Shown here in pieces: positions 32,618 to 42,294 of a DNA stretch of 64,000 bases. The notes beneath the pieces were generated by a model. The model saw only the letters and a program-made list of their open reading frames with translations. It had not been told where the DNA came from and made no database searches. Source of the DNA: Neotamlana laminarinivorans. Its GTDB lineage: Bacteria; Bacteroidota; Bacteroidia; Flavobacteriales; Flavobacteriaceae. The translations under genes and the position numbers were made by a program. The stretch's first letter is position 1. Every line of letters starts with the position of its first letter. The stretch is from positions 496,001 to 560,000 of the forward strand of contig NZ_JAJAPW010000002.1 in assembly GCF_020523925.1 (NCBI RefSeq), in the 5' to 3' direction.

Positions 32618-32705
32618 GGCGTTACCACGCTTTAGGCGCGGTCGGGCTTTACATTATATCTTTTTCTCGTACCTCAAAAAAGGATGCCATTTCAATCCCT
32701 AACGC
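32618..32705 (+). repeat. REP-like intergenic repeat, copy 2
   Basis: Starts GGCGTTACC, then CGGTCGGGCTTTAC, TATATCTTTTT, CAAAAAAGGATGCC and ends TTCAATCCCTAACGC. The layout (GGGCGTTACC ... GTCGGGCT ... ATATCTTTTT ... AAAAAGGATGCC ... AATCCCTAACGC) is that of a widespread Bacteroidota intergenic repeat. It fills most of the gap between hemJ and the histidine kinase gene. Confidence 0.75.
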
Positions 32706-32823
32706 GAGCAGCAACACTACAAATTTACAGCAATATATTTATGTTAAACAATCCTGTTTATATAAGCTTTAACTAATTTTGGTGTAATTATTGCTATCTT
32801 TAAAAAATATAAAATTGCTTTTT

Positions 32824-35374: not shown

Positions 35375-36175
35375 ATGGAAATTACCACCTCAAATTTTAA
35401 GATTAAAACAAGCAAACTAATTTTATTATTAATGCTTATTACTTGTTGGGCACAAGCCCAAACAGAAGCAGGAGATATTAATTGGAAAAAATGGCAGATA
35501 GATATTCCTGTAAATGGCAAATCAAAAATAATTGAAGGGAAAGCTATAAAAAAAGCACTTTCTAGTGGGGCCTACAATGATTATTTTAAACAAAACTCAA
35601 ACAAAACAATCGAATTAATATCTGGGCAAAAGTTGAGAAGCAATACTGGAGATGCTGAATCTCGAGGTTTTTCATCAAGTGAATTGGTAGAAATTTATCA
35701 TAGTAAATCTAACGATTATAGCTCTTACTGGACTAACAGTGGCACTCATGTTTTATCAGCAAGATTAAAAGCATATAAAGCAGAGGGTTCTCCTGAAACT
35801 TATTTAGCAAGAATTTTAAGTGCAGACAAAAGTGGTACATTTGATAAAATGAGGTTAATTTGGGATAATGGAATTTTATCGGTGGAATATATTGATGGTG
35901 CTCCTGCTGATAGACGTTATTCAAAAAAACAAATTGGAAAAGTTGACGAAAACATGTTTACATTGACTGTTAAAATGATAAGTGGAGACTTAAGTTTATC
36001 AATAAAATGTAAAAAAGCAGGCTTAGATATTAAAAATATGCTAGTAGCTAATTATGTAAACACAGAGTATTCTCATAACTTATTTAGAATAGGAAACTGC
36101 TTTAACTATAGCAAAAGTATTGATGACGGCGTTAAAGTTCAATTAAAATATGTGCAACTAATGCATAAAAAATAA
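35375..36175 (+). CDS. Secreted alginate-lyase-like (PL7-fold) protein with altered active site
   Basis: A 266-residue protein with signal peptide (cleavage after AQA, about 29). The mature part follows the order of PL7 alginate lyases (jelly-roll): a KLRSN strand, SSELVE at 101-106 in place of RSELR, SGTHVLSARLKAY, ARIL at 145-148 in place of QIH, the LSVEYIDG strand and LFRIGNCFNYS at 236-246 in place of YFKAGxYxQ. The His of QIH and the Tyr of the last motif thus appear to be missing, so it may bind rather than cut alginate, or cut another glycan. The assignment rests on motif order seen by eye. Confidence 0.6.
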   Translation: MEITTSNFKIKTSKLILLLMLITCWAQAQTEAGDINWKKWQIDIPVNGKSKIIEGKAIKKALSSGAYNDYFKQNSNKTIELISGQKLRSNTGDAESRGFSSSELVEIYHSKSNDYSSYWTNSGTHVLSARLKAYKAEGSPETYLARILSADKSGTFDKMRLIWDNGILSVEYIDGAPADRRYSKKQIGKVDENMFTLTVKMISGDLSLSIKCKKAGLDIKNMLVANYVNTEYSHNLFRIGNCFNYSKSIDDGVKVQLKYVQLMHKK

Positions 36176-37432: not shown

Positions 37433-38023
37433 TTAAATATTTTGAGTAAATATTTTACCTTCAGATTTAAATACTAATTTGTAGTGTTGAGAACCTAAAC
37501 CTTCAAGCTTGTAAGCTTTTTGAATGTTTTTCTTATGGTCAATATTATCTGTATAAACTAGATCTGAATTGCTATCGTAAATTTTAACTTCTAAAGGTGC
37601 TTCAGTTAAAGATAATTTAGATACATAAACAATACCATTTTCTAATCTAGCATAAGGCTTGTAAGTAACGCTTTTATCATTGTTATTAAAAACAACTTCT
37701 TTGTTAGTTACAGTAAAAGGAATAACATCAATTTCTAAATCTTTTTCAAGTTCAAAAGTGTATTCACCATCCGGTAAAGTTGAAAAATCGAAAGCTTTTT
37801 TATAGTTACCGTTTTCAGAAATTACTTCTTTATATAAAACAACACCGTTAGCGTCAATAATAGATAATTCATTTCCTTCTTTAACACTTTGTAAGTTTAA
37901 GATGGTTTTTTTAGCATCTTTAGTAAAAGTTATTAAAGTAGATTCATTTGCGAAACTTAACAAGGTAGCAAACATTGTTACCATTAAGAATCCTTTTCTA
38001 GCGTTTTTAATTACGTTTTTCAT
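37433..38023 (-). CDS. Small secreted protein, paralog A
   Basis: A 196-residue exported protein with signal peptide (about 1-25, ending LLSFA). The mature part is two similar beta-sandwich halves, each with a turn of the type found in T9SS sorting domains: IIDANGVVLYKEVISENGNY with LPDGEYTFELE in the first half, and IYDSNSDLVYTDNIDHKKN with HYKLVFKSEGK at the end. No catalytic domain precedes them. It differs from paralog B by a single residue (Ser for Asn at 23) and is similar to paralog C. A structural or adhesive envelope role is a guess. Confidence 0.82.
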   Translation of the reverse strand: MKNVIKNARKGFLMVTMFATLLSFANESTLITFTKDAKKTILNLQSVKEGNELSIIDANGVVLYKEVISENGNYKKAFDFSTLPDGEYTFELEKDLEIDVIPFTVTNKEVVFNNNDKSVTYKPYARLENGIVYVSKLSLTEAPLEVKIYDSNSDLVYTDNIDHKKNIQKAYKLEGLGSQHYKLVFKSEGKIFTQNI

Positions 38024-38570: not shown

Positions 38571-39161
38571 TTAAATATTTTGAGTAAATATTTTACCTTC
38601 AGATTTAAATACTAATTTGTAGTGTTGAGAACCTAAACCTTCAAGCTTGTATGCTTTTTGAATGTTTTTCTTATGGTCAATATTATCTGTATAAACTAAA
38701 TCTGAATTGCTATCGTAAATTTTAACTTCTAAAGGCGCTTCAGTTAAAGATAATTTAGATACATAAACAATACCATTTTCTAATCTAGCATAAGGCTTGT
38801 AAGTAACGCTTTTATCATTGTTATTAAAAACAACTTCTTTGTTAGTTACAGTAAAAGGAATAACATCAATTTCTAAATCTTTTTCAAGTTCGAAAGTGTA
38901 TTCACCATCCGGTAAAGTTGAAAAATCGAAAGCTTTTTTATAGTTACCGTTTTCAGAAATTACTTCTTTATATAAAACAACACCGTTAGCGTCAATAATA
39001 GATAATTCATTTCCTTCTTTAACACTTTGTAAGTTTAAGATGGTTTTTTTAGCATCTTTAGTAAAAGTTATTAAAGTAGATTCATTTGCGAAATTTAACA
39101 AGGTAGCAAACATTGTTACCATTAAGAATCCTTTTCTAGCGTTTTTAATTACGTTTTTCAT
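38571..39161 (-). CDS. Small secreted protein, paralog B
   Basis: A 196-residue protein identical to paralog A except for Asn at position 23 in the signal peptide region. The mature proteins are therefore identical, and the duplication increases dosage rather than adding a new function, unless the copies are regulated differently. Promoter and terminator are also duplicated. Confidence 0.82.
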   Translation of the reverse strand: MKNVIKNARKGFLMVTMFATLLNFANESTLITFTKDAKKTILNLQSVKEGNELSIIDANGVVLYKEVISENGNYKKAFDFSTLPDGEYTFELEKDLEIDVIPFTVTNKEVVFNNNDKSVTYKPYARLENGIVYVSKLSLTEAPLEVKIYDSNSDLVYTDNIDHKKNIQKAYKLEGLGSQHYKLVFKSEGKIFTQNI

Positions 39162-39639: not shown

Positions 39640-40239
39640 TTAAATATGCTGAGTAAATATTTTACCATCTGTTTGAAAAACAAATTTAAATTTACCTTCT
39701 CCTAAGCTAGAAATTTTGTAGGCTTTTTGGATGTTTTTAGTGTTCTCTACGTTTTCAGAAAAAACAAGTTCAGTCTCACCATCATTAATAAAGTAAATAT
39801 CTATTTTTAATGGTTGTTTGTTTAAGGCAAGTTTCGATACAAAAGCGACCCCATTTTCAATGCGGGCATAAGGCTTATATGTAATTTTTTCGCTTGCTTT
39901 ATTAAAATGAACAGTATTGTTTTTTACAGTAAAAGGCATAATGTCTATTTCTAAATCTTTTTCAAGTTCAAAAACATATTCACCATCCGGAAGAGCAGTT
40001 AAATCAAAAGCTTTTTTGTAATTACCAGCTTGTTCTATTACTTCTTTATATAAAACCACACCATTAGTATCAACAATAGTTAGCAGGTTTCCTACCTTCA
40101 CACTATCTAAAGATAAGATAGTTTTTTTAGCATCTTTAACAGTAGTTAAAGTAGCAGGCTCTGTTGCGAAACTTAACAAGGTAGCAAACATTGTTACCAT
40201 TAAGATTCCTTTTTTTGTGTTTTTAATTACGTTTTTCAT
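39640..40239 (-). CDS. Small secreted protein, paralog C
   Basis: A 199-residue relative of paralogs A and B with the same signal peptide (MKNVIKNTKKGILMVTM start) and the same two-half beta structure (IVDTNGVVLYKEVIEQAGNY; LPDGEYVFELEKDLEID; GKFKFVFQTDGK). The sequence has diverged in many positions, so this is an older duplicate than A/B. The terminator differs from that of A/B. Confidence 0.8.
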   Translation of the reverse strand: MKNVIKNTKKGILMVTMFATLLSFATEPATLTTVKDAKKTILSLDSVKVGNLLTIVDTNGVVLYKEVIEQAGNYKKAFDLTALPDGEYVFELEKDLEIDIMPFTVKNNTVHFNKASEKITYKPYARIENGVAFVSKLALNKQPLKIDIYFINDGETELVFSENVENTKNIQKAYKISSLGEGKFKFVFQTDGKIFTQHI

Positions 40240-40605: not shown

Positions 40606-40696
40606 AAACTAAGGCATAAAAAAAAGTGAGCCACCACAGCTCACTTTTACCAACTAAACTAAATAAGACATTAAACTAATTATTAATGAATTTTGT
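40606..40696 (-). repeat. 91-bp direct repeat, copy 1
   Basis: Identical at every position to 40996-41086 (offset 390 bp). It contains a terminator hairpin AAAAGTGAGC-CACCACA-GCTCACTTTT (40622-40648) and 45 nt of upstream sequence. Confidence 0.95.
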
Positions 40697-40818
40697 CACT
40701 CTGTAGAGTATATGTTTTATCAAATTAATTTTAAAAAGGTTTAAAAAAATCTACCACCAACTTTTTTAAAACTTTATATTATTAAAATCTATTTGATAAT
40801 AAATTTAATAATGTTTAA
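40618..40818 (-). ncRNA. Candidate small RNA, array unit 4
   Basis: Predicted transcript of about 200 nt from the promoter at 40824-40857 to the hairpin and T8 run at 40618-40648. It has no ORF longer than a few codons. Three hairpins are predicted: a 13-bp stem with one mismatch (40736-40748 with 40762-40774) presenting a loop with UUGGUGGUAG; a short ACUCU/AGAGU stem (40698-40709); and the terminator, with loop UGUGGUG. Unit 5 has the same order of hairpins with a different first stem. Expression and function are untested. Confidence 0.5.
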
Positions 40819-40823
40819 CACTA

Positions 40824-40857
40824 CAAATATAAGTTAGCGATATGCTCTAGAAAACAA
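40824..40857 (-). promoter_or_regulatory. Array promoter of small RNA unit 4
   Basis: On the minus strand: TTG (40857-40855), exactly 23 nt, TATATTTG (40831-40824), followed by TAGTGTTAAACATTA. Upstream CAATGATATT (plus strand) also matches paralogs A and B. Confidence 0.75.
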
Positions 40858-40995
40858 TGATATTGACTAAAATATATACTATTTTATCCTTAAATACATG
40901 TTTAGGTTAAAATAGCATAGTTTAGGGTTAAAAAAGGTTAAAAAAGTTTTGGTGATTCTATTTTTTATATTAATTTCACAAAAAATTAACAAACT

Positions 40996-41086
40996 AAACT
41001 AAGGCATAAAAAAAAGTGAGCCACCACAGCTCACTTTTACCAACTAAACTAAATAAGACATTAAACTAATTATTAATGAATTTTGT
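40996..41086 (-). repeat. 91-bp direct repeat, copy 2
   Basis: Perfect copy of 40606-40696. Similarity breaks at 41087, where the small ACTCT/AGAGT stem follows with a different loop. Confidence 0.95.
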
Positions 41087-41207
41087 TACTCTATAAAGAG
41101 TTTATTTTTTTACGATTACCTTAATTTCCTTAATTAAACAGTTACCACAAAGTTTAATTAAGGTTTTTTTGTTTAGATAAACGTTATATGTGCATCATAA
41201 TGTTTAA
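41008..41207 (-). ncRNA. Candidate small RNA, array unit 5
   Basis: Predicted transcript of about 200 nt from the promoter at 41213-41246. The first hairpin has a perfect 12-bp stem, CCTTAATTAAAC (41128-41139) with GTTTAATTAAGG (41152-41163), and loop UUUGUGGUAACU; the second is ACUCU-UUAU-AGAGU (41088-41101); the third is the terminator shared with unit 4. The first stem has no sequence in common with that of unit 4, yet pairs fully and keeps the GUGGUA loop. The plus-strand hairpin is followed by T7 and could also act as a terminator in that direction. Confidence 0.5.
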
Positions 41208-41212
41208 CACTT

Positions 41213-41246
41213 CAAAAATAGTTTGTAATTACAATTTATTAAACAA
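41213..41246 (-). promoter_or_regulatory. Array promoter of small RNA unit 5
   Basis: On the minus strand: TTG (41246-41244), exactly 23 nt, TATTTTTG (41220-41213), followed by AAGTGTTAAACATTA as in the other four units. Confidence 0.75.
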
Positions 41247-41361
41247 CTATTTTATCTTATATGTGTGCTAAATTAACCATTAATAAATTGTTAATGTGGT
41301 GTAAAGTTAAAATAACATATATTTAAGAGAAATAAATGTATAGTGTCTTCATAATATATAT

Positions 41362-41406: not shown

Positions 41407-42294
41407 ATGATTAATAAGAAACCTACATTCAGAAAGCTTACACCTAGTTTTGGTAGCTCTATACTAATTAAGCAACACTCAGATTCACTTGATAAAAATG
41501 CCGCCTATTGGCATTTTCATCCAGAATTAGAACTTATTTATGTAAACAAGGGGCAAGGTAAAACACACATAGGTAACCATTTGTCTTACTTTAATAATAG
41601 TCAGTTAATATTAATGGGGGCTAATTTACCACATAATGGTTTTACCGATAGGCTAACCGCAACAGGAACAGAAACTACAATACAGTTTAAAGCCGATTTT
41701 TTAGGTGATGATTTTTTAAACGTACCAGAAACAGCAAATCTTTCTGCTCTTTTTGATAGAGCTAAAAAAGGTATTCGTTTTAAGGTTGAAACAAAAAAAA
41801 CGCTAGGACCAAAAATTGAAGCGCTTAATGGTTTTGAAGGTTTACAAAAAGTTATAAAATTTTTAGAAATTTTAGATTTTTTAGCAAAAACAGACGATTA
41901 CGAACTATTAAATGCCGATGGGTTTGCCTTTGAAACCGATGCTCAAGATAGTTCTAAAATTGATATTGTTTTTAAATACGTAAACAAAAATTTTCAAAGT
42001 CATATTACTTTAGATGAAATAGCAGATAAAGTAAGTATGACGGTACCTGCATTTTGTAGATACTTTAAAAAATCTACAGGGAAAACATTTACCCAATTGG
42101 TTAACGAATATCGTGTTGTACATGCAACTAAGCTATTAAACGAAAGCCAAATGAGTATTGCCGATATTTGTTACGAATGCGGATTTAATAATTTTTCGCA
42201 TTTTAATAAACAGTTTACCGAGATTACAGGAAAAACAGCATCAAATTACAGAAAAGAAATAAAACTAATTATTCAAGATTCTGAAATTATTTAA
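41407..42294 (+). CDS. AraC-family regulator with N-terminal cupin domain
   Basis: A 295-residue regulator. The cupin-like N-domain has the metal or ligand motif YWHFHPELELIYVNKGQGKTHIG and PHNGF; the C-terminal HTH pair is ITLDEIADKVSMTVPAFCRYFKKSTGKTF and IADICYECGFNNFSHFNKQFTEITGKTASNYRKE. Such regulators often sense sugars, and this one may be local regulator of the divergent five-unit array; that is inference from position. Its stop overlaps that of the HD hydrolase gene by 4 nt. Confidence 0.88.
   Translation: MINKKPTFRKLTPSFGSSILIKQHSDSLDKNAAYWHFHPELELIYVNKGQGKTHIGNHLSYFNNSQLILMGANLPHNGFTDRLTATGTETTIQFKADFLGDDFLNVPETANLSALFDRAKKGIRFKVETKKTLGPKIEALNGFEGLQKVIKFLEILDFLAKTDDYELLNADGFAFETDAQDSSKIDIVFKYVNKNFQSHITLDEIADKVSMTVPAFCRYFKKSTGKTFTQLVNEYRVVHATKLLNESQMSIADICYECGFNNFSHFNKQFTEITGKTASNYRKEIKLIIQDSEII

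Follow-up and report, generated by a model that had tools for sequence, protein, structure and literature searches.

Tandem candidate small RNA genes with a DUF3244-derived tail and predicted pairing at glycan-gene starts in Flavobacteriaceae

The window analyzed here is a 64,000-nucleotide stretch of the Neotamlana laminarinivorans genome. It carries two candidate stand-alone sRNA genes in tandem, units 1 and 2, with three DUF3244-like genes adjoining them downstream and a divergent regulator gene on their other side. The promoter and first leader nucleotides are common to the DUF3244-like genes and the units. Genes B and C are almost identical including their upstream regions, a recent duplication. 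The features are as follows.

35375..36175, plus strand: alginate lyase (Alginate_lyase2), with a leader that may be a target (-21.3 kcal/mol, a level reached by 1 of 100 shuffled cores)
37433..38023, minus strand: DUF3244 gene C, same promoter as the units, nearly identical to B
38571..39161, minus strand: DUF3244 gene B, same promoter as the units
39640..40239, minus strand: DUF3244-like small secreted protein gene A (Pfam score 21.3, below the curated cut-off of 25)
40618..40831, minus strand: unit 1 (type A), candidate stand-alone sRNA gene, running from its promoter box TATATTTG (40824-40831) as far as the T8 run
40618..40696, minus strand: conserved 79-nt element of unit 1 (model R1, 109 bits), made up of the CDS-derived ..TTCATTAATAATTAG, antisense core and terminator
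40623..40647, minus strand: terminator hairpin of unit 1, loop UGUGGUG
40646..40692, minus strand: antisense core (47 nt) of unit 1, complementary to mRNA leaders
40698..40709, minus strand: small ACUC...GAGU hairpin of unit 1, directly 5' of the element
40729..40771, minus strand: upstream hairpin of unit 1 (type A), containing the conserved motif UUGGUGGUAGA
41008..41220, minus strand: unit 2 (type B), candidate stand-alone sRNA gene, running from TATTTTTG (41213-41220) as far as the T8 run
41008..41086, minus strand: conserved 79-nt element of unit 2, with the same sequence as in unit 1
41013..41037, minus strand: terminator hairpin of unit 2, loop UGUGGUG
41036..41082, minus strand: antisense core of unit 2, same as in unit 1
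41088..41101, minus strand: small ACUC...GAGU hairpin of unit 2
41128..41163, minus strand: upstream hairpin of unit 2 (type B; three relatives retain the stem but have other loops)
41410..42294, plus strand: AraC-family regulator, divergent, candidate activator

A preliminary description of this DNA had reported two minus-strand units of about 200 nt with promoters, hairpins and T8 terminators, and all of these parts are present as claimed. The units are two copies spaced 390 bp, and their longest identical stretch is exactly 91 bp (40606-40696, identical to 40996-41086). Both have a TTG-N23-TAnnTTTG promoter and a terminator consisting of a perfect AAAGTGAGC/GCTCACTTT stem, the loop TGTGGTG and then T8. 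The first hairpin has 13-nt arms matching at 92% in unit 1 (40729-40741/40759-40771) and 12-nt arms matching at 100% in unit 2 (41128-41139/41152-41163). The two stems differ in sequence, and both loops contain GTGGTA. Neither unit contains an ORF of at least 60 aa. Compared with dinucleotide shuffles the predicted folds have z scores of -3.34 and -2.77, with 0 of 200 shuffles equally stable for each unit. The transcript of unit 1 would span about 40618-40819, its start being inferred. Directly past the terminator T-run there is a second, partial core copy (ATGYCTTA..TAGTTTAG; window 40606-40617 and 40996-41007, minus strand), which is also found past the T-run of other units (L032 2421-2444; L034 3006-3029; L035 371-394).

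Searching the units against Rfam 15 gave no gathering-level match; five matches appeared at E<=10, all far below gathering scores and none named FopS or GibS. We carried out the covariance search that the preliminary description had proposed. The tail model has matches (E<=0.001) in 54 of 397 Flavobacteriaceae genomes, representing 38 of 237 genera, and in 2 of 395 genomes from a class-wide draw, both of them Flavobacteriaceae; strict filters were used in the family and class searches alike. The terminator has compensatory changes in all 11 pairs (94 distinct aligned rows), as do 21 of the 22 model pairs, in an alignment fitted to the covariance model, which favours finding such changes. Cells at model pairs are paired in 96.9% of cases versus 91.3% when shuffled, and the UGUGGUG terminator loop is commonly kept. 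The earlier view that the units look like structured small-RNA genes is supported. As judged by covariation, they belong to a structured RNA family with conserved structure and without an Rfam 15 match.

Conservation also extends 5' of the element. Among the best 90 of the 117 tail matches retrieved, an ACUC..GAGU-like hairpin with a stem of at least 4 bp precedes the element in 39 of 43 distinct stand-alone rows (100 shuffles: mean 22.8, maximum 31) and in 31 of 45 mRNA rows (shuffle mean 17.2, maximum 24). The number of TTTAG repeats in the core varies by lineage, from about two to four.

Units are present in all four genomes of the genus, the host included, with six in tandem in genome G001. 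They are of two types, A (like unit 1) and B (like unit 2), one type B being found per genome. Contigs of genome G003 end inside units (start of L035, end of L036, start of L037, end of L038); draft assemblies may therefore collapse tandem arrays, and copy numbers are lower bounds. In type A, UUGGUGGUAGA is kept in 10 of 10 aligned copies of the genus, and 4 of 40 predicted pairs have changes on both sides. The corresponding count for type B is 0 of 49.

The source of the tail can be followed in relatives. In Algibacter the tail closes a DUF3244-like gene, comprising its final codons (F-I-N-N-stop), 3'UTR and terminator; this gene sits between an AraC gene and the next DUF3244-like gene. The Algibacter terminator has GTGGGC/GCCCAC in place of GTGAGC/GCTCAC with an unchanged loop. 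The TTCATTAATAATTAG of the element likewise reads F-I-N-N-stop in DUF3244 genes. The 117 tail matches come from 61 fetched sources. An ORF of at least 150 aa has its stop within the first 30 nt of the element in 66 of them, so that, as in 3'UTR-derived sRNAs, the RNA module doubles as the 3' end and terminator of an mRNA. Three more have a stop nearby and 48 have none. The long ORFs were taken as DUF3244 by eye from their ends (MKN..., ..FINN), with Pfam run for the three in the window, and among the 48 matches without a long ORF are fragments at contig ends and a few located at other genes (L061, L087, L090, L091, L093). The ORF before the element is not DUF3244 in L061 (1501-1576) and L087 (2709-2785), where it has about 80 aa and ends KKYNKTVKK or KKYNNSLKK. 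By comparison of these sequences, the tail is derived from the end of a DUF3244 gene and the promoter is common with DUF3244 genes. Locus L070 (3232-3396, minus strand) codes for a DUF3244 start, followed by two in-frame stops and then directly by the element, and is possibly a step from protein gene toward sRNA gene.

An AraC-family regulator is encoded at 37 of 44 element loci checked by tblastn. In 38 of the 48 hits without a long ORF, TAnnTTTG lies 80-208 nt upstream of the element and is accompanied by a TAnCAYAnA box exactly 50 nt before it, in a search that allowed a spacing of 45-95; these hits come from 30 genomes, among which is the MAG record L028. The box of unit 2 is at 41262-41270 in the window, and unit 1 is one base off the TAnCAYAnA/TAnnTTTG pattern. 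A box resembling TAnCAYAnA also lies upstream of DUF3244 genes in alignment. The box, at this fixed distance from the promoter, is a likely activator site, and we suspect that the AraC-type regulator acts there. The adjoining regulator would then probably activate both the DUF3244 genes and the sRNAs.

It could be argued that the units are just decaying DUF3244 duplicates, with the tail acting only in cis as a good terminator or mRNA-stability element. Remnants of coding sequence and the stop codon context do persist, L070 has its two in-frame stops before the element, and a long ORF stops inside the element in the 66 matches. Against decay, promoter, box spacing and element are kept together in 38 of 48 stand-alone units, there are six tandem copies in G001, the long invariant core 5' of the stem would be needless for a cis terminator, and the core has antisense sites at start codons, described below. 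We consider decay unlikely.

The preliminary description also held that the GUGGUA loops are constant while the stems change, and proposed that repeated GUGGU loops titrate an RNA-binding protein in the manner of a CsrB-type decoy. Constancy holds for type A, with its 10 of 10 copies in the genus, and fails for unit 2, three relatives of which retain the hairpin stem with differing loops; one part of the paired GUGGUA loops in units 1 and 2 is thus, on the aligned copies, coincidental. Beyond the genus, unit-1-type hairpins from three further genera (L040, L046, L048) keep GUGGUAG between different outer stems and are predicted to fold alone at -5.7, -5.6 and -2.7 kcal/mol; in L040 and L046 the predicted fold places part of GUGGUAG in weak inner pairs. 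Of the 48 matches without a long ORF, 14 have GTGGTA within the 110 nt that precede the element, 11 of the 14 in one genus.

In decoy RNAs such as CsrB and RsmY the loops carry a repeated short motif. The window units are like them in repeating a short motif in loops, and the commonly kept UGUGGUG terminator loop and the retention of GUGGUAG in type A as well as in three further genera speak for a decoy. However, each window unit has two GUGGU copies, the first-hairpin copy of unit 2 is unconserved, and conservation is strongest in a long contiguous core rather than in a short repeated motif. The longest invariant part of the units is this core, complementary to starts of carbohydrate genes. 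No match to RRM_1 (PF00076) was found in the host genome, a 99.85% complete draft, with a control Bacteroides genome positive; an RbpB-like RRM_1 partner was thereby dropped as a candidate. Titration through the loops appears highly improbable. A further possible role of the type A loop is pairing of its UUGGUG with the ACACCAAAUCAUG leaders of DUF3244 genes, which is seen in Tamlana and, by eye, fits worse in three other genera.

The core, of about 47 nt, reads AUUCAUUAAUAAUUAGUUUAAUGUCUUAUUUAGUUUAGUUGGUAAAA. Its predicted mean unpaired probability is 0.50 in unit 1 and 0.47 in unit 2. Three type B relatives have values of 0.35-0.37, for an overall range of 0.35-0.50 in six units. A core that is only about half open in the predicted folds speaks against a pairing role. 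The GUCUUAUUUAGUUUAGUUGG part of the core has an unpaired probability mostly of 0.5-0.9 in two type A units. The core also contains ATGTCTTATTTAGTTTAG, from which a tiny peptide, MSYLV, could be read. This five-codon frame is intact in 87 of the 117 elements, yet the nucleotides outside it are equally invariant, the start falls where the mRNA copies have their 3'UTR, and L089 and L102 are among the copies in which the frame is altered. We find a coding role hardly credible.

Marine Flavobacteriaceae are degraders of algal polysaccharide. Searching the host genome with a 60-nt core returned, among the best non-self matches, three antisense sites directly before start codons on contig C81. The first precedes the gene for a 1108-aa protein with CBM6 and sorting-tail domains, PL6-like by eye, in which Pfam shows no lyase domain. 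The second, 7 nt before the ATG of a PL gene (alginate-lyase-family), has 19 nt of perfect complementarity; a T. sargassicola relative of this gene has an Alginate_lyase domain (Pfam). The third precedes a SusC gene. The neighbours of these genes code for sulfatases, GH31, SusD and GH39, all in one polysaccharide utilization locus. Seven of 18 scored frames in the C81 stretch, one of the 18 being the cut remainder of the PL gene, have leaders below -19 kcal/mol. At E<=0.2 the host genome gave 10 non-self core matches, five of them antisense before or over a start, five coding and none sense.

In the T. sargassicola counterpart of the C81 locus, where only the PL site was known from BLAST before scoring, four of 17 leaders are below -24 kcal/mol, and none of the remaining 13 is stronger than -15.9. 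The four belong to the PL gene, SusC, and the counterparts of DUF4959 and LRR proteins, the last two assigned by position and N-terminus. The alginate lyase gene at 35375 had no relative in the fetched loci.

We also examined eight other element-bearing genomes, which gave 74 core matches at E<=0.2. After removal of 17 element copies, 3 partial copies adjacent to these and the 7 weakest matches, 47 non-self matches were classified: 22 cover a start or lie no more than 60 nt before it in antisense orientation, 1 does so in sense, 15 are coding and 9 are other, including a weak element copy (L158) in the DUF3244 cluster of genome G215. Products among the 22, identified by eye, include SusC, GH43, MFS and sodium-solute transporters, galactose mutarotase and transaldolase. 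A carbohydrate role is plausible for at most 13 of the 22 antisense start-site genes, mostly judged by eye from translations; Pfam was used for L169 (DUF4450, GH116-like) and the PL gene. Those without a sugar role include malate dehydrogenase, an ATP-synthase-like protein and a ribonucleotide-reductase-like protein. Genome G215 has targets, yet all its elements follow long ORFs, suggesting that the mRNA form can act too.

How far this pairing exceeds chance was assessed with SusC leaders, shuffled cores and element-free genomes, target discovery and part of the testing having drawn on the same genomes. The SusC leaders of two element-bearing genomes (n=28, a subset of SusCs: 30 loci returned minus two whose match begins mid-protein) have a mean of -17.7 kcal/mol versus -13.4 for shuffled cores, and 0 of 300 shuffles were as low. 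For three element-free genomes (n=30) the mean is -14.4 versus -13.0, with 17 of 300 as low. The two sets differ (one-sided Mann-Whitney p=0.0016; 0.004 when the two SusCs that BLAST had found earlier are left out) and are similar in composition (A+T 0.797 and 0.788; A 0.460 and 0.466). Leaders below -19 kcal/mol number 10 of 28 with the element, 2 of 30 without it, and 2 of 49 among window genes, one of these two being the alginate lyase gene at 35375. Over 65 leaders from the window and the C81 stretch the mean is -14.4 versus -13.2 shuffled, with 4 of 100 shuffles as low. The leader signal is partly generic, since in element-free genomes, too, the core pairs with SusC leaders somewhat more strongly than its shuffles do.

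When unit 1 was scanned segment by segment, each against 60 shuffles, the core segments starting at 127, 141 and 155 gave z scores of -2.4, -2.7 and -2.9 with the element versus -0.7, -1.6 and -2.1 without it. In the last segment, which starts at 169, the signal is however lower with the element (-1.1) than in its absence (-2.2). The segment 85-124, of weak energy, reached -3.8 with and -2.5 without the element and is regarded as generic.

Eight element-free genomes, none with a model match, gave 21 core matches: 3 antisense, 2 sense, 11 coding and 5 other. In the nine element-bearing genomes, shuffled core 1 gave 1 antisense and 1 sense among 30 classified (47 matches), and shuffled core 3 gave 11 antisense and 3 sense among 30 classified (32 matches), perhaps because it contains the reverse of the ATGAAAAC start. 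The antisense proportion alone is not proof, as that of shuffled core 3 (11 of 30) is near the real one. At 34.6 bits or above, antisense start sites make up 10 of 16 matches in the nine element-bearing genomes, 0 of 3 in the element-free genomes, and 1 of 4 and 0 of 2 for the shuffled cores.

Complementarity of the core at start codons is present in the sequences themselves. As in trans-acting sRNAs, a conserved seed is predicted to be complementary to several unlinked mRNA starts, with the caveats given by the shuffled cores and element-free genomes. The core being antisense to glycan-gene starts, the RNAs would probably turn those genes down. We consider it probable that the units are base-pairing sRNA genes that arose from DUF3244 genes and block translation of glycan-uptake genes. 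A DUF3244 gene would have lost its coding sequence while promoter, last codons, 3'UTR and terminator remained, giving an sRNA gene; in relatives this 3' module is also found at the end of DUF3244 mRNAs, from which it may be released. Once transcribed, AUUCAUUAAUAAUUAGUUUAAUGUCUUAUUUAGUUUAGUUGGUAAAA would pair across translation starts in the mRNAs that serve glycan uptake and degradation (SusC porins, lyases, perhaps sugar transporters), and the duplexes formed in cells would most likely block translation.

FopS of Bacteroides thetaiotaomicron provides the closest comparison. FopS are reported (PMC11697453) to be paralogous multicopy sRNAs of about 65-70 nt, one of them 3'UTR-derived, linked with RbpB. 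Their single-stranded 5' seed pairs near SusC start codons of glycan loci, they are described as translational repressors, and deposition of the family in Rfam is mentioned. Like FopS as so described, the units are multicopy in Bacteroidota with predicted pairing near SusC starts. Unlike FopS, they measure about 200 nt between promoter and terminator and have their core beside the terminator, though a shorter processed form is possible; they match no Rfam model; they are in tandem, with a protein gene's promoter and a DUF3244-derived tail; and their host had no RRM_1 protein in our search. By this description, the units would work like FopS in predicted pairing and differ in the other traits of the family (Rfam, length and seed, RRM_1).

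The module also resembles 3'UTR-derived sRNAs such as SdhX/RybD (PMC6393394) in that it is an mRNA 3' end with its terminator; unlike them, many genomes here also hold promoter-bearing copies without coding sequence. Rfp18 of Flavobacterium psychrophilum is reported (PMC9723704) to have predicted targets among metalloproteases and an adhesin, with pairing via its third stem-loop. The units are like Rfp18 a conserved sRNA of the same bacterial family with predicted mRNA targets, and are set apart from it by description, not sequence, in target classes and pairing region. Among the open-licence PMC papers listed, judged by titles and abstract openings, none describes an sRNA layer over Flavobacteriaceae glycan loci, or these units.

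A fuller reading, which we place only a little above even, is that Flavobacteriaceae have an sRNA regulon, unlike FopS in sequence, that controls polysaccharide use at translation starts and whose genes were born from DUF3244 genes, with type B perhaps a self-masking or sponge form. Under the same reading, present-day genomes would together display the mRNA forms, the stop-bearing remnant and the free tandem sRNAs. If true, glycan uptake in Flavobacteriaceae has an sRNA layer like that of gut Bacteroides, via a different RNA, and the locus illustrates a protein gene turning into a regulatory RNA gene.

Type B may be a self-masking or sponge form because three of the four carry a target-like CTAAATAA stretch. 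It lies in the 5' part of the units at L032 2443-2645 (minus strand), L034 2803-3009 (plus strand) and L035 391-589 (minus strand), and the exact CTAAATAA string is absent from unit 2 of the window. In the consensus fold of type B, part of the core pairs with a AACTAAATAA-like 5' stretch resembling a target site. Elsewhere in the window, outside the units, lies the sole match of an Rfam search of the whole window, Flavo-1 RNA (RF01705), a known Rfam sRNA family, at 32636-32717 on the minus strand (47.5 bits, above the gathering score).
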